43,615 nucleotides of DNA, from positions 1 through 43,615 of the IMG/VR virus record IMGVR_UViG_3300028840_002216; one strand, written 5' to 3'. This stretch comes from a virus. Shown here one piece after another: positions 1 to 13,076 of this stretch. Positions within the stretch are counted from its first letter, which is position 1; every line of letters starts with the position of its first letter. Position numbers and translations under genes: made by a program. The notes under the pieces were generated by a model. It worked only from the letters and a program-made list of their open reading frames with translations, was not told the DNA's origin and did no database searches.

Positions 1-198
1 TGCGGACGCTGCAAGATTGAAATGAAATGCATTAAAACTGGAGCCGTCTTCCGATGGGAAGAGCGCTACTGCAAGCGAGGGGATCTCTATGAGTGTCCGG
101 TTTGCGAGAACCAGGCAGGCTATGTGATGGACAGGACCGAGGGGTACGAAAGCGTAGCCGAGATCCCGAGAGAGTTCTACGTGGAGATGGCAGAGTGA
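1..198 (+). CDS. Zinc-ribbon protein, C-terminal part (cut by window edge)
   Basis: The reading frame is open from base 1 to a TGA at 196-198 and gives 65 residues without a start, so the 5' end lies outside the window. Two CxxC knuckles (CGRC at the start and CPVC near residue 34) suggest a small zinc ribbon, probably structural or nucleic-acid binding. The stop overlaps the GTG start of the next gene (GTGA), which suggests translational coupling. I recognise no specific family, and the function is unknown. Confidence 0.7.
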   Translation, partial: CGRCKIEMKCIKTGAVFRWEERYCKRGDLYECPVCENQAGYVMDRTEGYESVAEIPREFYVEMAE

Positions 199-695
199 AG
201 CGAAAGAAAGCCCCACAGATAGAGTGTCCGAGCTGCGGAGGTAGGAAGTTCACCAGGCACCATGACTGGTACAGGCACAAAGACGCGAGACCGCTCTTCA
301 AATGCATGAAGTGCAGCCACCATTGGACAGCAGGAAAGACCGGCGGAAGGTACATCGGCAAAGAACAGCACGATGGGACGTTTATCTCTCCAGTAGGGCA
401 GGGAAAGTGGAGAGTCACCTGGCCATGCGCGAAGTGTGGTTCTCAGCTCAAAGCAGAATTCAGATTGTTCGATTCAGCGGAGATGTTCGAAGCTCTTACG
501 CGAGACCCAGGAAAAGGGAAGGAAGCAATCACCGGCTGCAATGAGTGCGGGACTCCGTTCGCTCCAAACGAAGATCTTTTGGCAGAGGTGAAGGCTGTTG
601 AATACATCGAGCAATGTCGTCGCGCTGGAATGCTCGAACGATTGAAAGAAGCTCATAGAAAAAAAAAGAACATAGAGCTTAAAAAAACGGCGTAA
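195..695 (+). CDS. Double zinc-ribbon protein of unknown function
   Basis: I start this 166-residue protein at the GTG at 195, which overlaps the upstream stop; extending upstream only adds sequence that shadows the preceding gene. There are four CxxC pairs: CPSC and CMKC near the N-terminus, then CAKC and CNEC, which fit two consecutive treble-clef or ribbon zinc sites. A basic helical tail (RKKKNIELKK) follows. Such proteins are common in phage early regions and may bind nucleic acid, but no specific role can be assigned. A non-coding regulatory stretch follows. Confidence 0.75.
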   Translation: MKRKKAPQIECPSCGGRKFTRHHDWYRHKDARPLFKCMKCSHHWTAGKTGGRYIGKEQHDGTFISPVGQGKWRVTWPCAKCGSQLKAEFRLFDSAEMFEALTRDPGKGKEAITGCNECGTPFAPNEDLLAEVKAVEYIEQCRRAGMLERLKEAHRKKKNIELKKTA

Positions 696-699
696 CTAC

Positions 700-735
700 T
701 TGATAATAGTAGGTAAAGTGCTAGATTATAAATAT
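700..735 (+). promoter_or_regulatory. Promoter-like box P1
   Basis: A TTGATA hexamer (700-705) and a TAGATT hexamer (722-727) are 16 bases apart in an AT-rich gap after a stop codon. The stretch between and after them (AGTAGGtAAAgTGCTAG, then ATTATaAATAT) recurs almost unchanged at 6156-6190 (P2), where the spacing is also 16. The two copies share far more than the hexamers. They may therefore be sites for a phage-modified polymerase or share an activator. The assignment is inferred from position and repetition. Confidence 0.55.
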
Positions 736-741
736 CTCAAA

Positions 742-815
742 GGGGTTTGGGAGTAATGAAAAAGCAAGAGATTCAAAAGGCATTATCGTCGGCATCGCAG
801 ATGCCCCCAAACCCC
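742..815 (+). ncRNA. Nested hairpin leader after P1
   Basis: GGGGTTTGGG (742-751) is the exact reverse complement of CCCAAACCCC (806-815). Just inside the 3' arm sits a second perfect hairpin, GGCATC-GCA-GATGCC (791-805). Transcripts from P1 would begin with this structure. An ATG at 756 lies inside the outer loop, but its frame runs through the tRNA-like region and looks non-coding. It could be a regulatory leader, an attenuator or a small structured RNA. No T-run follows, so it is not a simple terminator. Confidence 0.45.
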
Positions 816-842
816 CCCACTGATTTGTGGTGCCGGCGTCTT

Positions 843-960
843 GGTTCGTCAGTTGCAGGTGTGATGGTAGGCCGTTGCTCATGTGCCTCTCCTGTGTTTG
901 GGGTCACGCTATTTGGATGCAACTCTTCATTGAAGACGGGTTCGAATCCCGGACGGGCCT
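843..960 (+). other. tRNA-like locus with expanded body (possible pseudo-tRNA or attachment core)
   Basis: The 3' end has a T-loop TTCGAAT (943-949) flanked by ACGGG and CCCGG, then an acceptor strand ACGGGCC and discriminator T at 960. GGTTCGT at 843-849 pairs with that acceptor strand over 7 positions (two G-U). The span is 118 bases, however, and no normal D-arm and anticodon arm fit. GTTGC (852-856) pairs with GCAAC (919-923), and a small CTTC-ATT-GAAG hairpin precedes the T-arm. It may be a degenerate tRNA, a tRNA with an insertion, or the 3' tRNA fragment of an attachment site. Confidence 0.3.
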
Positions 961-975
961 CTACTGGAGGTATTG

Positions 976-1353
976 ATGGCAACGCCTGAAGAAATTTGTT
1001 GGGGAAAGAAACCACCGGGCTGGCAAATGGGAGACCCATGGGGAGCAGCCAGCACGTGGCGCAACTACAAGAAGCTACTCCTTGTGCTTGGGTCTGTGGA
1101 GGAGAAGGACGATGGGAAGAAGTGGCTTCACATCTCGGTGTCGCATCGCCGAAGGATGCCGAGCTACGAAGAGATGTGCTACGTGAAGAAGCACTGGATC
1201 GGCGATGAACACAAAGCGATTGAAGTCCATGCACCGGTCGAGGAGCATTTCAATTTTCACGAACATTGCAGGCACCTTTGGTGCTGCCTTGGCGAGGACC
1301 CGCTTCCAGACATGAGGGTCATCGATACGTTCACGGGGGTGAAGGGTGTTTGA
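976..1353 (+). CDS. DUF7694-like phage protein
   Basis: The 125-residue product starts at ATG 976, 5 bases after CTGGAGG; a TTG at 973 is the alternative. The C-terminal half reads RMPSYEEMCYVKKHWIG, followed by a histidine-rich stretch ending HLWCCL and DPLPDM. This matches my memory of the short phage family annotated DUF7694, whose function is not known. It is the first gene after the P1 leader and tRNA-like region and is probably read from P1. Confidence 0.8.
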   Translation: MATPEEICWGKKPPGWQMGDPWGAASTWRNYKKLLLVLGSVEEKDDGKKWLHISVSHRRRMPSYEEMCYVKKHWIGDEHKAIEVHAPVEEHFNFHEHCRHLWCCLGEDPLPDMRVIDTFTGVKGV

Positions 1354-1435
1354 AACAACTCTACTTTTAATAGGATGCGCAGGGCCGTTCATTGGATTGC
1401 TCGTTGCGTTCCTCAGAACAGGAGACACAAAGTGA
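1346..1435 (+). CDS. 29-residue single-span membrane microprotein
   Basis: A short frame starts at GTG 1346 inside the end of the preceding gene and stops at TGA 1433-1435, overlapping the next GTG start (GTGA). The product is almost entirely one hydrophobic segment (TTLLLIGCAGPFIGLLVAFL) with a short polar tail. GGGGGTGAAGG lies just upstream as a possible binding site. Overlap coupling on both sides supports translation, but at this size it could be spurious. No function can be assigned. Confidence 0.4.
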   Translation: MFETTLLLIGCAGPFIGLLVAFLRTGDTK

Positions 1436-1803
1436 TAGAAGAATATAAATTTGGGGACATCATTTTCTCGGTATTTCCATGGCCTGGAGAGAAGAAGCAG
1501 AGCATCCACGTGATGTACAGCGGAGAACTCATTACGCCAGCCGTAATGAAGGGCGTTGTAACCAGAGTCTTAGAAAGGGATAAAGGTGAAACCAGGGGTG
1601 TTTGTGTAGCATGGGATGGTAGCGCTTCTATCGGAGAGGTTGATGTTGACCGAATTTCGAAAACAACACAGGAGGCCAAAGAGTTGGCCACGAAAGAGGC
1701 AGAGAGGATAGCACAAGAATATGCAAGGTACGCTCTCCTCTGCAAGAGAGCAGACATGATGAAGAGCGAGGACGACGACGGAAAAGTCCTCATTGAAAAA
1801 TAG
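1432..1803 (+). CDS. Unknown phage protein with helical C-terminus
   Basis: I start at GTG 1432 (AGGAG about 8 bases upstream, overlapping the previous stop) rather than at the ATG at 1375, which lies inside the microprotein. The 123-residue product has a beta-rich N-terminal half (residues 1-60) and a long charged helix (about 65-105) rich in Lys, Glu and Ala. No family is recognised. It precedes the RecF-like ATPase and may belong to the same transcript. Confidence 0.7.
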   Translation: MIEEYKFGDIIFSVFPWPGEKKQSIHVMYSGELITPAVMKGVVTRVLERDKGETRGVCVAWDGSASIGEVDVDRISKTTQEAKELATKEAERIAQEYARYALLCKRADMMKSEDDDGKVLIEK

Positions 1804-1851
1804 AAAGTGGCCGGCGGACGAAGGCCAATAAACCCAAACAGGAGAGGTCAA

Positions 1852-3117
1852 ATGACAAAGGAAGCGAAGAAGGTTCAGACGATAGTCAAACTCACCGCGG
1901 AGAACGTAAAGCGACTGAAGGCGGTCGAGATCACACCGGACGGCAAGATGGTCGTCATTTCAGGGAAGAACGCCCAGGGCAAAAGCAGCGTGCTGGACTC
2001 CATCATGTTCGCTATCGGCGGAAAGTCGCTGATGGACAAGATGTCCCTGAGACACGGTGCCGAGAGTGGAGAGATTGAGGTGGAGACCCAGGAGCTGGTC
2101 ATCCGGAGGCGCCTCAAGGACAACGGGTCCACGGTTCTCGATGTTCGCCGCAAAGACGGCGGCAAGGTGAAGGCCGCCCAAGGGGTGCTGGACAGCATGA
2201 CCTCCGGGATCTCCTTCGACCCGTTGGAGTTCTCTCGCATGGAAGGAAAGAAGCAGGCAGACGAGGTGAGAAAGCTCGCTGGTTTAGACCTGACTCCATT
2301 CGATGAGAAGAAAGAGGCAGTGTTCGAAGACAGAGCTGAGATCAACAGGAGACTGAGCAGCAAGAAAGCAGCTTTGGAGCAGGCTCCATACCACGATGAT
2401 GCACCAGAGGAAGAGGTATCCGTCAACGACGTGAAGGAAGAGCTGGAAGAGGCAAGGGTGGTCAACCGGAGCATTTCCAAAATCGAGCAGGAAATTGCCG
2501 AAAGCGATGCAGAGATGGAGCGCATCGCAGATCAGCTCAACGAGATCGAGGAGATGAAATCACGTCTCGAAGGTCAGTTTGCTGGAGAGCGCAAGAAGAA
2601 GGAAGTTCTGGAGAATAATCTAAAAGAGTTCACGCCGGTGGAGGAGGACGACCTGTTCGAGAAGATGGCCAACCTCGAAGCGATCAACTCCAAGGTTCGA
2701 GACAACAAGATGTACCGCCAGGTCAAGAGCCAGGTGAAAGAGTTGACGATCCAGTCGGATGCGAAGACCAAGAAGCTTGCAGAGATCGCAGAAGAGCGAA
2801 TGAAGGCCATCACGTCAGCGAAGATGCCCATCGAAGGGTTGACCATTGGCGAGGATGGCACGCTGATGTTCAATGAGATCCCGCTTGAGCAGTGTTCCAG
2901 CGCAGAGAGACTGAAGGTCTCGGTATCTATTGCCATGGCTCAGAACCCGGAGATTCGCATCATGCTGGTGCGCGACGGCTCTCTGTTGGACGACGAGAGC
3001 TTGAAGCTCCTCGCTCAGATGGCCGAGGAGAATGAGACCCAGGTCTGGATGGAGAAGGTAGGGGAAGATGTCGAGGGTTCCATCGTCATCGAAGATGGAA
3101 TGGTAAAAGAGAAGTAG
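1852..3117 (+). CDS. RecF/SMC-type AAA ATPase
   Basis: ATG 1852 follows GGAGAGG; an upstream GTG at 1807 is less likely. The 421-residue protein has an N-terminal Walker A (GKNAQGKSS, near residue 38) and a central coiled coil of about 150 residues rich in Glu and Lys. Its C-terminus has an ABC-signature-like CSSAERLKVSVSIAMAQ and a Walker B-like stretch (RIMLVRDGSLLDD). This is the layout of the compact RecF/SbcC/SMC-like ATPases that many phages carry beside recombination genes. It probably acts on DNA ends or gaps with the SSB encoded next. The stop codon's last base begins the CRISPR-like repeat. Confidence 0.9.
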   Translation: MTKEAKKVQTIVKLTAENVKRLKAVEITPDGKMVVISGKNAQGKSSVLDSIMFAIGGKSLMDKMSLRHGAESGEIEVETQELVIRRRLKDNGSTVLDVRRKDGGKVKAAQGVLDSMTSGISFDPLEFSRMEGKKQADEVRKLAGLDLTPFDEKKEAVFEDRAEINRRLSSKKAALEQAPYHDDAPEEEVSVNDVKEELEEARVVNRSISKIEQEIAESDAEMERIADQLNEIEEMKSRLEGQFAGERKKKEVLENNLKEFTPVEEDDLFEKMANLEAINSKVRDNKMYRQVKSQVKELTIQSDAKTKKLAEIAEERMKAITSAKMPIEGLTIGEDGTLMFNEIPLEQCSSAERLKVSVSIAMAQNPEIRIMLVRDGSLLDDESLKLLAQMAEENETQVWMEKVGEDVEGSIVIEDGMVKEK

Positions 3118-3147
3118 TCGCCCACTTGAATGGGCGTGGATTGAAAC
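3117..3147 (+). repeat. Solitary CRISPR-repeat-like element (type I-C style)
   Basis: A 31-base element starts at the last base of the ATPase stop codon. It begins GTCGC, contains the inverted arms CGCCCA (3120-3125) and TGGGCG (3132-3137) around a CTTGAA loop, and ends with GTGGATTGAAAC. That layout and the 3' handle are characteristic of type I-C CRISPR repeats, which are usually 32 bases. I see no second copy in the window, so there is no array. It lies in a 99-base gap before ssb. Solitary repeat units in phages are known to act as RNA anti-CRISPRs. That role here is inference. Confidence 0.75.
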
Positions 3148-3148
3148 G

Positions 3149-3162
3149 CCGAAGAGCTTCGG
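3149..3162 (+). other. Hairpin directly after the CRISPR-like repeat
   Basis: CCGAAG and CTTCGG flank a two-base AG at 3149-3162. In practice this would be a CCGA/TCGG stem with a six-base loop. It starts two bases after the repeat, where a spacer would lie. No T-run follows, so it is not a canonical terminator. It may define the 3' end or stability of a small RNA containing the repeat. Confidence 0.4.
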
Positions 3163-3216
3163 AATATGGCTGGCCCAGTAGAAAAACAGAGAGGGGTCAG
3201 CAGGAAGGAATTGAAA

Positions 3217-3687
3217 ATGGCTGATGGAGTAAACAAAGTGATCCTGGTCGGGAACCTTGGGAAAGATCCGGAGGTGAGCTACACGCAAAGCGGAACCGCG
3301 AGATGTCGGTTTTCGTTGGCCACCGGAGACAGCTACACGGACAGCAGTGGAGAGCGCCAGGACAAGACCGAATGGCACAACATCGTCGTGTGGGGCAAGC
3401 AGGGTGAGAACGTCGGCAAGTACCTCGCCAAGGGACGTCAGGTGTACATCGAGGGCAAGATTCAGACGCGAAGCTGGGACGACCAGAAGAGTGGTGAGAA
3501 GCGGTACATGACCGAGATCAACGCTCAGCGCGTTGTTTTCCTCGGAGGCAAAGGTGGCGGCGGTCAAGGTGGTGGCGGCCAAGGCGGTGGAGGTGGATAC
3601 AGTCAAGGTGGGGGCGGATACGAAGGAGGCGGCGGAGGATTCAGCGGCGGTGGTGGATACCCGGACGACGACGATATCCCCTTCTAA
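3217..3687 (+). CDS. ssb: Single-stranded DNA-binding protein
   Basis: ATG 3217 follows CAGGAAGGA; the frame is open back to 3166 but the OB fold begins here. The 156-residue protein opens [15 protein letters not shown], has the [14 protein letters not shown] and [16 protein letters not shown] segments of bacterial-type SSB OB folds, a glycine-rich linker (about residues 112-148) and the acidic tip DDDDIPF. The tip normally recruits partner repair and replication proteins. It would coat single-stranded phage DNA and probably works with the upstream ATPase and downstream nucleases. Confidence 0.97.
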
Positions 3688-3711
3688 GCAGCACGCAAAC
3701 AGGAGGAACAC

Positions 3712-3894
3712 GTGGCGGATAAGATTGTACTTGGACAGGAATTCGTAGAATGGCTTGCGATGGCGACGAGCGAGATGTCTCAAGAAGAATACGCAGCCGT
3801 TCTCAATGAGCTTGAGAGTGAAGTTCGTCTGAGTCAGGAGGCCCTGGCTGAAGACATGGGCATCACTATCGAGCAACTACGGCAAGTTCAATGA
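3712..3894 (+). CDS. Small helical protein, possible HTH-like end
   Basis: This 60-residue product starts at GTG 3712, 8 bases after AGGAGG. It is mostly acidic helix, ending LSQEALAEDMGITIEQLRQVQ-like sequence that resembles a helix-turn-helix (LSQEALAEDMGI, then ITIEQL). The stop overlaps the next ATG (ATGA). It might be a small regulator or a host-interaction protein. No family is recognised. Confidence 0.7.
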   Translation: MADKIVLGQEFVEWLAMATSEMSQEEYAAVLNELESEVRLSQEALAEDMGITIEQLRQVQ

Positions 3895-4118
3895 ACCAGG
3901 AACAAAAAATAGCGTTCGCAAACGAAAGAGCAGAGAGGCTGGCTGACGAGAGACGAGAGGCGACATTCCTCGGAGTTCCCGTCAGCAAGCTTTCTCAAAA
4001 GGCTCTTTGCGGAGTGATCGCTGACATGCACCAGCGAGTCGAAGACGACAGGAACCGTCGGATGGAAGAACAGCGGTTCATGGATTCACTACGCAATGCA
4101 AGGGGAACGAGACTATGA
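3891..4118 (+). CDS. Small charged helical protein
   Basis: The 75-residue product starts at ATG 3891, overlapping the previous stop, and ends overlapping the next start at 4115. It is strongly helical, with many Arg, Glu and Asp residues and a KLSQKALCGVIADM segment in the middle. No zinc site or membrane segment is seen. Overlaps on both sides indicate an operon with the nuclease genes downstream. Function unknown. Confidence 0.7.
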   Translation: MNQEQKIAFANERAERLADERREATFLGVPVSKLSQKALCGVIADMHQRVEDDRNRRMEEQRFMDSLRNARGTRL

Positions 4119-4540
4119 ACAAAGGATTCATCAGGGCAGGCGTGTTTCTGATAGGCGGACTTGTTGCCGTTATCGCCAGCGCTGCCACCTACAAAGAGAA
4201 ACCGGATCTCGGAAAGAGAGAGTATCCGGCCAACGTCCAGAGGATTGTCGACGCGGACACATTTGATCTGCTCGTTGACCTCGGATTCCAGACGTACTCG
4301 ATGCAACGTGTGAGGCTCGCAGGTGTAGATGCCTGGGAGATGAGAGGCGAGGAGAAAGTCAAGGGGAAGATGGCCACCGAATTTGTGAAGAGGAGGATGC
4401 CGGAAGACTCATGGGTTGTTGTCTCCTCCGATGGGAAGAAGGGGAAGTACGGCAGGTTCATCGTGGACGTTCAACTTTCAACAGGAGAGCAGCTTGGAGA
4501 GTTGCTACTCAAGGAAGGCCACGCAGAGCCATACGAATAG
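4115..4540 (+). CDS. Staphylococcal nuclease-like protein with N-terminal signal or anchor
   Basis: The 141-residue product starts at ATG 4115. Residues 7-24 are hydrophobic (VFLIGGLVAVIASA), a signal peptide or anchor. The rest fits the thermonuclease fold: VDADTF (metal-ligand Asp), QRVRLAGVDAWE (Arg67, Asp72 and Glu75, matching Arg35, Asp40 and Glu43 of micrococcal nuclease) and KYGRFIVDV (Arg114, matching Arg87). All key catalytic residues therefore appear present. It would cut DNA or RNA at or outside the membrane. A role in degrading host or competing DNA is possible, but this is inference. Confidence 0.88.
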   Translation: MNKGFIRAGVFLIGGLVAVIASAATYKEKPDLGKREYPANVQRIVDADTFDLLVDLGFQTYSMQRVRLAGVDAWEMRGEEKVKGKMATEFVKRRMPEDSWVVVSSDGKKGKYGRFIVDVQLSTGEQLGELLLKEGHAEPYE

Positions 4541-4558
4541 GCTGGCCGGGAGATAACA

Positions 4559-5332
4559 ATGGCGAAGAGAGGGCTTGAAATAAAGAGACCACTCGTGTTC
4601 TTCGACCTGGAGACCACAGGCACAGACACGGAAACGGATAGAGTTGTTGAGCTGGCGGCAGTCAAGATGCTGCCGAATGGAGAGAGAGAAACCTACGTTC
4701 AGCGGTTCAATCCAACCATTCCGATACCGGCAGAGGCAACGGCAGTCCACAACATCACGGATGCGGATGTGAAGGATTGCCCAACCTTCGCAGAGAAGGC
4801 GAAAGAGATCTTCTCGTTCTTCGAGCTTTGCAATTACGCAGGGTACAACGTAATCAAGTTCGACCTCCGGATGCTGTACGAAGAGCTATTCAGGGCAGGG
4901 ATAGCTATGCCGCTCAACGGAGCAATAGTTGATTGCTGCCAAATTTTCCATCAGAGAGAGGAGCGGACACTTGAGGCAGCAGTTCGCTTCTACACAGGGA
5001 AGGAGCATGAGGACGCCCATAACGCTTTGGCCGACGTGGAGGCCACCATCGCAGTGATGTACGGACAGCTCGAACGGTACGAGGATCTCTCATCAAACCC
5101 TGAAGAAATCTACGAGCAGGTGAGAGACCCGGACGCGGTAGATCTCGAAGGCAAGCTGCGCTGGGACGGTCCCCACATGGTTCTCACCTTCGGCAAGGAG
5201 AAAGGAAAGCCCTTGCAGAACGTGGATAAGGGTTACCTCTCTTGGATGCAAGGGAAGAACGTGATCGGCCCAGATGCCAGGCACATCATCGCGAATGCTC
5301 TGCATGGCAGGTACCCAAGTAGGAGGGTGTGA
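4559..5332 (+). CDS. DnaQ-like DEDDh 3'-5' exonuclease
   Basis: The 257-residue protein carries FDLETTGTD (Asp16, Glu18), NVIKFDLRML (Asp102) and EDAHNALADVEAT (His154, Asp159). These make up a complete DEDDh catalytic set of the DNA polymerase III epsilon/RNase T family. The C-terminus (FGKEKGKPLQNVD, then GYLSWM) resembles the small domain found after exonuclease X-type nucleases. It would trim DNA 3' ends in phage replication or recombination. GGGAG lies upstream of ATG 4559. The stop overlaps the next start. Confidence 0.95.
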   Translation: MAKRGLEIKRPLVFFDLETTGTDTETDRVVELAAVKMLPNGERETYVQRFNPTIPIPAEATAVHNITDADVKDCPTFAEKAKEIFSFFELCNYAGYNVIKFDLRMLYEELFRAGIAMPLNGAIVDCCQIFHQREERTLEAAVRFYTGKEHEDAHNALADVEATIAVMYGQLERYEDLSSNPEEIYEQVRDPDAVDLEGKLRWDGPHMVLTFGKEKGKPLQNVDKGYLSWMQGKNVIGPDARHIIANALHGRYPSRRV

Positions 5333-5973
5333 TGGAGGGATACTTCAAGGTGAACGTCCACCTCGGAGACATCAGAGGCAACGAGGACATTGACACGCTG
5401 TTCTTCAGCTACGAGTCTCCTTGGTGGACCCATGACAGAACGCTTCTCAAGGAGAAGGATGGGGAATTGTACAGCCCGTTTGGCGAGAAGATTCAGGAGG
5501 TCGATAAGCTCCAAGCGCTCTACCACTTCGGGAAAGATGGTCGTAAGGTGTGTGGACCTCATGGGGTTATCACCTTCTTGGCGGCCAACCATGTGAACAT
5601 GCAGAAATCCAAAGAGGATTCGACTCCAATCCGATTGAAGGATTGGCCTGCATATCATGAGGTGGTGGACCGACAGGCGGCAGCCAAGCTGGAAGAATTG
5701 CAACAGGCGGATGAGGACATTACCGGGAAGCCATGGAAGAAGAGGCCGCCGGGCAAGTACTCAACCCACTATGCGATCTTCCACAAGCCAAAGGAGAACC
5801 CGGAGGGGTACCTGGTGAGGAGGTTCTTCATCATCGACGGAGGTGTCTATCCGGAGATGTATCACAAGAAAGCCGACACGCTGGAGAAGGCAAGGACTGA
5901 GGTGCCGGACGGACATGTTGGGATACCTCGAAGCGATGAAGATGATGAGACGCTTCTGGAGACGTGGATCTGA
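5332..5973 (+). CDS. Unknown 213-residue phage protein
   Basis: ATG 5332 overlaps the exonuclease stop and follows TAGGAGG; GTG 5329 is the alternative. The N-terminal 80 residues are mixed alpha/beta with several Trp and Tyr residues. The middle contains an acidic helix and KPWKKRPPGK. The end is acidic (RSDEDDETLLETWI). I see no catalytic motif or zinc site and recognise no family. Its overlap with both neighbours puts it in the DNA-metabolism operon. Confidence 0.7.
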   Translation: MEGYFKVNVHLGDIRGNEDIDTLFFSYESPWWTHDRTLLKEKDGELYSPFGEKIQEVDKLQALYHFGKDGRKVCGPHGVITFLAANHVNMQKSKEDSTPIRLKDWPAYHEVVDRQAAAKLEELQQADEDITGKPWKKRPPGKYSTHYAIFHKPKENPEGYLVRRFFIIDGGVYPEMYHKKADTLEKARTEVPDGHVGIPRSDEDDETLLETWI

Positions 5974-6128
5974 TGCCTGAGCTTGACATGGGAGAGCCGC
6001 TTGATGCGAGAGAGCCGCCATGCCCAGAGTGCGACAGCGACCGAACCAGAGTTCACGACGACAGCGAGAAGGATGGCATTTTATACCAATGCACGGTGTG
6101 TAATAAAGTCTGGAAATGCTCAAAATAA
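5973..6128 (+). CDS. 51-residue zinc-ribbon protein
   Basis: The short frame starts at ATG 5973, overlapping the previous stop (TGATG), and ends TAA 6126-6128. It has CPEC near residue 17 and CTVC near residue 41, the two knuckles of a small zinc ribbon, with a typical aromatic YQCTVCNKVWKC end. It is the last gene before the second promoter-like box. Function unknown; nucleic-acid or protein binding is likely. Confidence 0.7.
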   Translation: MPELDMGEPLDAREPPCPECDSDRTRVHDDSEKDGILYQCTVCNKVWKCSK

Positions 6129-6155
6129 AAAAATAGTTTACTTTTAAAAAATAAC

Positions 6156-6190
6156 TTGCAAAAGTAGGCAAAAGTGCTAGGATTATCAAT
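6156..6190 (+). promoter_or_regulatory. Promoter-like box P2
   Basis: TTGCAA (6156-6161) and TAGGAT (6178-6183), 16 bases apart, lie in a very AT-rich 96-base gap. The surrounding AGTAGGcAAAAGTGCTAG and ATTATcAATAT match P1 at 700-735. It would drive the long accessory run starting with the radical SAM gene. The shared box beyond the hexamers is the strongest evidence that it is functional. Confidence 0.6.
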
Positions 6191-6224
6191 ATGAACCCAA
6201 ACACACACAACCAAGGCAGAAATC

Positions 6225-7055
6225 ATGAGCAAACTAGCATTCGATTCATTAGTTGTTGAGGTAACCCGTCGATGCAATATCGACTGTGAGCATTGCCTTC
6301 GCGGCGACCCGGAAGCGGTCAACCTCCAATACCACCATCTCAGAGCGACGCTATCTCAATGTGAGTACATCTCAACGGTAACATTCACCGGTGGAGAGCC
6401 GACGCTGAACCTCGAACCGATTCAATGGTTTCTCAATTACACGAAAGAGCATCAAATTGGCTTTGGTAGTTTCTACATTGCCACCAATGGCGTGAAGATT
6501 TCGGAAGAGTTCATCATTCTTTGCTGCAAGCTCTACGCAGCGGCGGATGAGAAGGACATGTGCAGGGTGGACCTCTCCGACTCGCAGTTCCACCAGGCGG
6601 AGACGGACGCAGATACAGAGCTTCTCGAAGCGCTGTCCTTCTTTGGAAGGAAGTATGGAGAGAACAGGTATCGGTACGAGAGCTGGCTCAATCAAGGTCG
6701 TTACGCGGAATACTCAGACGATGGTCGCGAGATGACACGCGAGGATCTCGAAATAGAATATGGGAGAATCCAAGGCACGCTCTATTTGAATTGCGAAGGC
6801 AATATCATTGCAGGGTGTGATTGGAGTTACGAATCTCAGCGCAATCCGAGCAACATTGTGTGCAAGTCAACTGAGTGCATTGGAACAGCCACGAAGGTGT
6901 GGTCGATGGACAGGGAGGAGCTGGAAGAATACCTCGAAGGAAGAGGGTTCGAGGTTAGAGATGACGAATCCGATGAGGTTCTGAGAGATGCAGTGCGTCT
7001 CGACATCGCAACGAACGAGGACATCGACGAAGACTGGAAGCGAGGTGCAGCATGA
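6225..7055 (+). CDS. Radical SAM protein
   Basis: The 276-residue product has RRCNIDCEHC (Cys17, Cys21, Cys24: the CxxxCxxC that binds the 4Fe-4S cluster) and FTGGEPTLN, the SAM-binding GGEP motif. A later stretch, NCEGNIIAGCDWSYESQ with a further Cys, resembles the C-terminal part of other phage radical SAM proteins and may hold a second metal site. The substrate is unknown; no neighbour gene points to a cofactor or nucleotide-modification pathway. ATG 6225 follows AAGGCAG and it is the first gene after P2. Confidence 0.9.
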   Translation: MSKLAFDSLVVEVTRRCNIDCEHCLRGDPEAVNLQYHHLRATLSQCEYISTVTFTGGEPTLNLEPIQWFLNYTKEHQIGFGSFYIATNGVKISEEFIILCCKLYAAADEKDMCRVDLSDSQFHQAETDADTELLEALSFFGRKYGENRYRYESWLNQGRYAEYSDDGREMTREDLEIEYGRIQGTLYLNCEGNIIAGCDWSYESQRNPSNIVCKSTECIGTATKVWSMDREELEEYLEGRGFEVRDDESDEVLRDAVRLDIATNEDIDEDWKRGAA

Positions 7056-12111: not shown

Positions 12112-13076
12112 GTGTTAAACTTGGTTCGAGCAGGATCATCGACGGCAAGAAAGCCACAGTTGTTGAGTTCTGCTCGGAACCGAACACCGGCCTATGCGTG
12201 GTCGAGTACAACAACTGGTCGTTTACCATGCCCAGTGCGTTTGCTGAGCAGATGCTCGCCATCCAGGATGGAGCGCTATTGCTCAAGGTGGTGAAGGACA
12301 AGATCGAGCGCATCTCCCTGAACTTCCAAAGCGACGATACGGTGCTGAGTCTTCTATCTGAGATATTGGAAGCAGCAGAGAAGGCATTCGAGAAGAGGCC
12401 CTATGACACAGTGTTCCCGGAGGAGGTTGAACGAGCTATCGAGAAACTCCCAAGGGAGGTGACCAAGGAAGTTGGTAGCTACAACTTGGTGGACGCGGTC
12501 CTATATTGGCGGAAGCTTTGGGATGAGCTGAAGAAGATGGAGTTGGAACACGGCCAGGCTCAGATAGATCTCATGGCGGCAGACAAGATGGCGCAGTGCG
12601 CAGATCACCTTGTGATGAACCATCTGATAGATGCAAGAAGCGCCTTGGCGGATTCTCGGCTCGAATATGGAGAGCCATATACCTATGAGCATTCAAATCT
12701 GGAGAAACCACAAAGCATTTGTTTTGGACTGGCTCACCAGGAGGTTCTGGTCCGCAGAGAGAATGCGTGGTTGAGAGAGGTTCTTGATGTGGCACTTGAC
12801 GTAGTGGATGACTACGCACCAGAAGAAGATCCGACCCCTGCAATTTCTCTATTGAGAGAGAGAGCAGAGAGGATGCGCTATCTGTTTGAACAGCCGGAGG
12901 GGAAGTCCAAGGATGAGGTCATGACAGCACTGAATTCATGGGCAACAAAGTGGAGCAAGGGGACAGGGTTCGGCTTCCTAACCTGTGGAAGGTGTGGAAA
13001 CACAGCGGTGGAAGGCGATATACCAAGGGGCAAAGAAGCAGAATGCCCAACATGCGGATACACGGGGTGCAAATGA
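12108..13076 (+). CDS. Unknown protein with C-terminal zinc ribbon
   Basis: I start at ATG 12108 after AAAGGA, overlapping the previous stop. The 322-residue product has a beta-rich start (residues 1-65), a long helical middle (about 75-285) and a zinc ribbon at the end, with CGRCG and CPTCG about 20 residues apart. It is the largest unknown protein in the accessory region. A scaffold or nucleic-acid adaptor role would fit, but nothing specific shows it. Confidence 0.7.
   Translation: MSVKLGSSRIIDGKKATVVEFCSEPNTGLCVVEYNNWSFTMPSAFAEQMLAIQDGALLLKVVKDKIERISLNFQSDDTVLSLLSEILEAAEKAFEKRPYDTVFPEEVERAIEKLPREVTKEVGSYNLVDAVLYWRKLWDELKKMELEHGQAQIDLMAADKMAQCADHLVMNHLIDARSALADSRLEYGEPYTYEHSNLEKPQSICFGLAHQEVLVRRENAWLREVLDVALDVVDDYAPEEDPTPAISLLRERAERMRYLFEQPEGKSKDEVMTALNSWATKWSKGTGFGFLTCGRCGNTAVEGDIPRGKEAECPTCGYTGCK

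Follow-up and report, generated by a model that had tools for sequence, protein, structure and literature searches.

A solitary type I-C CRISPR repeat unit between a RecF-like ATPase gene and ssb of a phage is a candidate RNA anti-CRISPR

A single type I-C CRISPR repeat unit of 31 nt, GTCGCCCACTTGAATGGGCGTGGATTGAAAC, lies at positions 3117–3147 (+ strand) of the window, by which we mean the whole of IMG/VR record IMGVR_UViG_3300028840_002216 (43,615 bases). The unit is best explained as a type I-C RNA anti-CRISPR (Racr) on the mRNA shared by a RecF-like ATPase gene and ssb, a reading to which we give a probability of about 0.68. A second contig, IMGVR_UViG_3300017971_000264 (G002; 78,055 bases), is 99.99–100% identical to window positions 12839–43615 and extends past the window end. 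From this overlap the phage genome is at least about 91 kb, and the record is therefore a fragment.

Read directly, the unit opens with GT ahead of a 6-bp stem, CGCCCA/TGGGCG, whose arms occupy 3119–3124 and 3131–3136 and enclose the 6-nt loop CTTGAA (3125–3130). This stem-loop (3119–3136, + strand) is the predicted Cas5d-bound part, and the homologous positions covary in other solitary units. The last 11 nt, TGGATTGAAAC (3137–3147, + strand), are predicted to form a full 5′ handle, placed by comparison with the homologous I-C repeat of Bacillus halodurans and with the 11-nt and 21-nt tags described previously (PMC3890593, PMC5965380). RNA folding of the unit gave a 6-bp stem, a 6-nt loop and an 11-nt single-stranded handle. 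The GTCGC start, the stem-loop and the GTGGATTGAAAY end are those of a type I-C repeat, as indicated by the covariance model described below and by comparison with the B. halodurans repeat (PMC3890593).

The covariance model (R1) was built from 26 other repeats, 25 of them viral units and one an array repeat of Bacillus methanolicus, with the window unit excluded. When run on the window, R1 found the unit with 36.4 bits (E = 3.8e-9), while the next match had an E-value of 0.51. The sole Rfam match in the stretch was CRISPR-DR9, with 25.4 bits and E = 0.00079, which is under the gathering score of 45. A chance resemblance is extremely improbable; the total folding energy, ordinary for the composition (z about −1.3 to −1.5), is a weak point in its favour, but the R1 E-value and the wide gap to the next match already contradict it.

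No second copy of the unit was found on either strand of the window, where the next best ungapped copy has 12–13 mismatches, or in the overlapping contig G002. The start of ssb gives a gapped local match of score 12, whose distance from the unit does not fit I-C spacing. Virus-borne mini-arrays have at least two repeats around a spacer, and the window holds a single copy. Three criteria make up the SRUFinder definition of a solitary repeat unit (PMC10651486): a known CRISPR repeat matched with identity and coverage of 90% or more and a bit score of at least 41.1, an intergenic position, and the absence of any second repeat, whole or partial, within 100 bp. The window unit is intergenic, between a gene end at 3117, with one stop base shared, and the likely ssb start at 3217; a 353-aa reading frame on the opposite strand spans it, yet both flanking genes are supported on the + strand. 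No ungapped copy with fewer than 12 mismatches occurs anywhere in the window, the 100 bp around the unit included. The original prediction of a solitary 31-base type I-C repeat, with its GTCGC start, CGCCCA/TGGGCG arms and handle, and with no partner copy and hence no array, is upheld by the sequence and by R1.

Upstream of the unit lies a gene for a RecF/SbcC-like AAA ATPase (1807–3117, + strand; Pfam AAA_23, 2.9e-12; PHROG 1499, 1.5e-84). The third base of its TAG stop codon is the first G of the unit, so that the unit does abut the stop codon as predicted, and overlaps it by one base. Downstream, ssb (3217–3687, + strand; Pfam SSB, 2.1e-39) has a likely start at ATG 3217, picked from the sequence, with AGGAAGG upstream, 69 nt past the end of the unit.

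Ahead of the gene run that holds the unit is a promoter-like element, TTGATA ... TGCTAGATTAT (699–729, + strand), which resembles three further sites in the phage, at window 6155–6186 and at G002 55803 and 57496, all on the + strand. The four copies read TTGCAA or TTGATA followed by TGCTAG or TGTTAG, and both G002 copies share with window 6121–6233 a stretch of about 110 bp at 75–80% identity. A terminator scan of window 1–6500 gave just two weak sites, and between the element and the unit the only terminator-like site was a weak one inside the ATPase gene. Given the upstream element and the few weak terminators, the unit is probably read on a long transcript; the earlier proposal that it is read on the operon transcript is strengthened by the element and its three same-strand copies, and we infer that the unit lies in the early region. 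No promoter-like site was found within 250 bp upstream of the unit, which counts against the Racr reading, as tested stand-alone Racrs have such a site near.

Two further features of this part of the window were observed. Window 930–957 (GGGTTCGAATCCCGGACGGGCC) resembles a tRNA 3′ half and weakly matches the annotated tRNA-Asp of Lactococcus phage P1048; no tRNA was called there by ARAGORN, and the stretch may be either a degenerate tRNA or an attachment site. A radical SAM protein encoded at window 6225–7055 gave weak viperin-type matches (NCBIfam viperin, 3.4e-6; PADLOC pVip, 3.1e-8).

Relatives of the phage were sought through its proteins. The major capsid protein identified relatives (about 60–64% identical) in records of up to 102 kb, and ssb is present in four of them. 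The searched I-C pattern gave no unit in these capsid relatives, which counts against the Racr reading, and searches for the ATPase gene in members of this group found none. A peptide pattern for the ATPase likewise found no relatives in viral contigs, and the nearest proteins of the ATPase, portal, terminase and capsid, all below 60% identical, disagree on the host. PADLOC, run on the 67 called genes of the window, gave no cas model among the matches listed, which is weak evidence because 25 of 36 families were listed; a DEDDh exonuclease model labelled as CAS-associated matches the gene at 4559–5332 (Pfam RNase_T). A scan of neighbouring genes likewise recognised no known acr gene, and this too counts against the Racr reading.

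We gathered viral contigs with degenerate I-C patterns and removed copies with a neighbour within 300 nt. This gave a first set of 53 solitary units (46 distinct), including one from a B. methanolicus prophage, and a second set of 47 (40 distinct), hence about 100 other solitary I-C units in total, nearly all on viral contigs. Handle and outer stem were prescribed by the search patterns, which is why the same handle recurs and why just the free positions test the structure. Among the 31-nt units of the first set, pair 6/17 was formed in 17 of 19 distinct sequences, with four pair types (shuffle mean 8.7, maximum 15), and in the second set pair 6/18 was formed in all 40 (shuffle mean 23.5, maximum 32). 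The covariation is strong, although no probability can be attached to it because shuffling leaves shared ancestry in. The covarying stems show that the RNA hairpin of the class is under selection.

The surroundings of the units are less uniform. Co-orientation with the flanking genes was strong in the first set (30–31 units with both genes on the same strand vs 4–6 with both opposite) but failed in the second (18–20 vs 11–12), and it was dropped as general evidence. Adjacency to ssb was likewise dropped as a general feature, with two further loci near ssb in the first set and none of 46 new loci in the second. Some viral contigs have a more complex layout. In one (L049), a solitary I-C unit precedes ssb by 231 nt and a two-repeat I-C mini-array lies about 800 nt further on, and two separately placed solitary units occur on viral contigs L010 and L035, L004, L048 and L063. 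The unit at L046:3142–3173 is readable in frame from an upstream ATG and may lie in coding sequence.

A short hairpin, CCGAA-GAGC-TTCGG (3149–3162, + strand), follows the handle. The original prediction had placed a compact hairpin in the spacer position; the hairpin is real, but a role in the design of the unit is not supported, as no 5-bp hairpin occurs within the first 16 nt downstream of any of the 53 other solitary I-C units, and a hairpin shared by the class was rejected. Hairpins of 5 bp occur in 1.3% of random 16-nt stretches of the window and in 13% of 35-nt stretches. From these chance rates and the absence after the other units, the hairpin is probably either incidental or, among the 54 units tested, peculiar to this phage.

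A near match to a host type I-C repeat, which had been put forward as support for the prediction, did not emerge from the genomes and repeats compared. The exact 31-mer was absent from GTDB genomes and from IMG/VR, and no site with up to three mismatches was found in 399 genomes of the phylum of B. methanolicus. The best identity among the repeats compared was 87.5%, against the SRUFinder threshold of 90%, and the lack of a host repeat at 90% or more counts against the Racr reading. Furthermore, 229 spacers from the fetched arrays gave no convincing match to the phage, just short ones at chance level.

The nearest relative, at that 87.5%, is a solitary 31-nt unit (L051) of B. methanolicus DE0196, one of three genome matches to a stem-specific pattern. 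It has the identical CGCCCA/TGGGCG stem, a 6-nt loop and a handle equal but for the last base. In contrast to the window unit, its loop is different, it lies near phage tail and amidase genes (the contig encodes a Sipho_Gp37 tail protein and an amidase), and its host is known and has its own I-C array. That array has 20 repeats, nearly all GTCGCACCTTATATAGGTGCGTGGATTGAAAT, which have the start, the handle and the last T of the handle in common with L051, whereas the stem is different. Mimicry of shape, not of exact sequence, would also explain the lack of a near-identical host repeat for the window unit. Two units on viral contigs (L192 and L193) also have the CGCCCA/TGGGCG stem and GTGGATTGAAAC, but differ from the window unit in a 4-nt loop, TTGA, and in lacking GT at the start.

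Cas5d of type I-C systems cleaves the repeat at the foot of its hairpin, so that an 11-nt 5′ tag remains, and keeps hold of the 3′ hairpin (PMC3890593, PMC5965380). In RacrIF1, the nuclease and Cas7 collect on the RNA upstream of the cut (PMC10651486). By analogy, the unit would be transcribed within the mRNA of the ATPase gene and ssb, and in a type I-C host Cas5d would take its hairpin and handle for a pre-crRNA repeat. The predicted cut falls between 3136 and 3137, and Cas5d would remain on the 3′ hairpin of the upstream piece. As in RacrIF1, this piece would retain both Cas5d and Cas7, here at the 3′ end of the ATPase transcript. Cas7 could polymerise on this upstream RNA in the absence of a proper guide, and the Cas proteins would thereby be tied up in non-productive complexes, starving the phage-targeting crRNAs.

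This proposal has two tested counterparts. RacrIC1, from a Bifidobacterium pseudocatenulatum prophage, begins 11 nt after acrIC5, shares one bicistronic RNA with it and inhibits type I-C (PMC10651486). Like the window unit, it is a solitary I-C unit right after a gene end and on the transcript of that gene, as is predicted here; it differs in following acrIC5 and in having been tested experimentally, whereas the window unit, a candidate by sequence, overlaps the stop of the ATPase gene and precedes ssb. RacrIF1, from a Thiocystis violascens prophage, is also a phage-borne, solitary mimic of a repeat, without cas genes (PMC10651486), but it is of type I-F, has its own promoter and is cut by Cas6f, whereas the I-C unit of the window would be on an operon with Cas5d as the expected nuclease. 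The earlier view of the solitary repeat as an RNA anti-CRISPR candidate agrees with this published class (PMC10651486) and with the roughly 100 units that have a covarying stem.

The position of the unit, exactly between two same-strand genes with its first base within a stop codon, could instead suggest a Cas5d processing or sensing site in phage mRNA, at which a cut between the ATPase gene and ssb alters their expression and decoy action is secondary or absent. Many other units indeed lie a short way ahead of a start codon. However, the genes beside the units vary from phage to phage, and the scarcity of ssb beside them described above also speaks against a site of this kind, which we consider unlikely. 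That a single cut both traps Cas5d and tunes the phage replication genes is rather doubtful; if it were true, the phage would sense and answer type I-C immunity with one element.

Since true arrays and two-repeat mini-arrays are also present among the same viral contigs, the unit might be a functionless remnant of a host-derived array or mini-array. Against decay of this sort, every stem pair and the whole handle are intact, no degenerate second repeat lies at I-C spacing, and the stems of the class covary; a remnant is accordingly improbable. Very unlikely is a one-spacer guide, in which RNA past the handle would serve as a crRNA that targets a rival or the host, even though the handle is complete and virus-borne mini-arrays with such a use are known (PMC11656645). 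A I-C crRNA takes its 3′ hairpin from a second repeat, which is missing here, the downstream hairpin starts one base past the handle, and the 40 nt after the unit have no other long match in the phage.

The RNA anti-CRISPR reading leaves the window unit as a credible Racr candidate of an already described kind, a well-formed new example in an unusual place. To the young class of RNA inhibitors it adds a type I-C candidate on a gene-bearing transcript, not a dedicated small RNA. The sequence comparisons suggest that in solitary units the shape of the repeat stem is retained as its sequence drifts, and units of this sort could escape searches that demand strict identity to host repeats.
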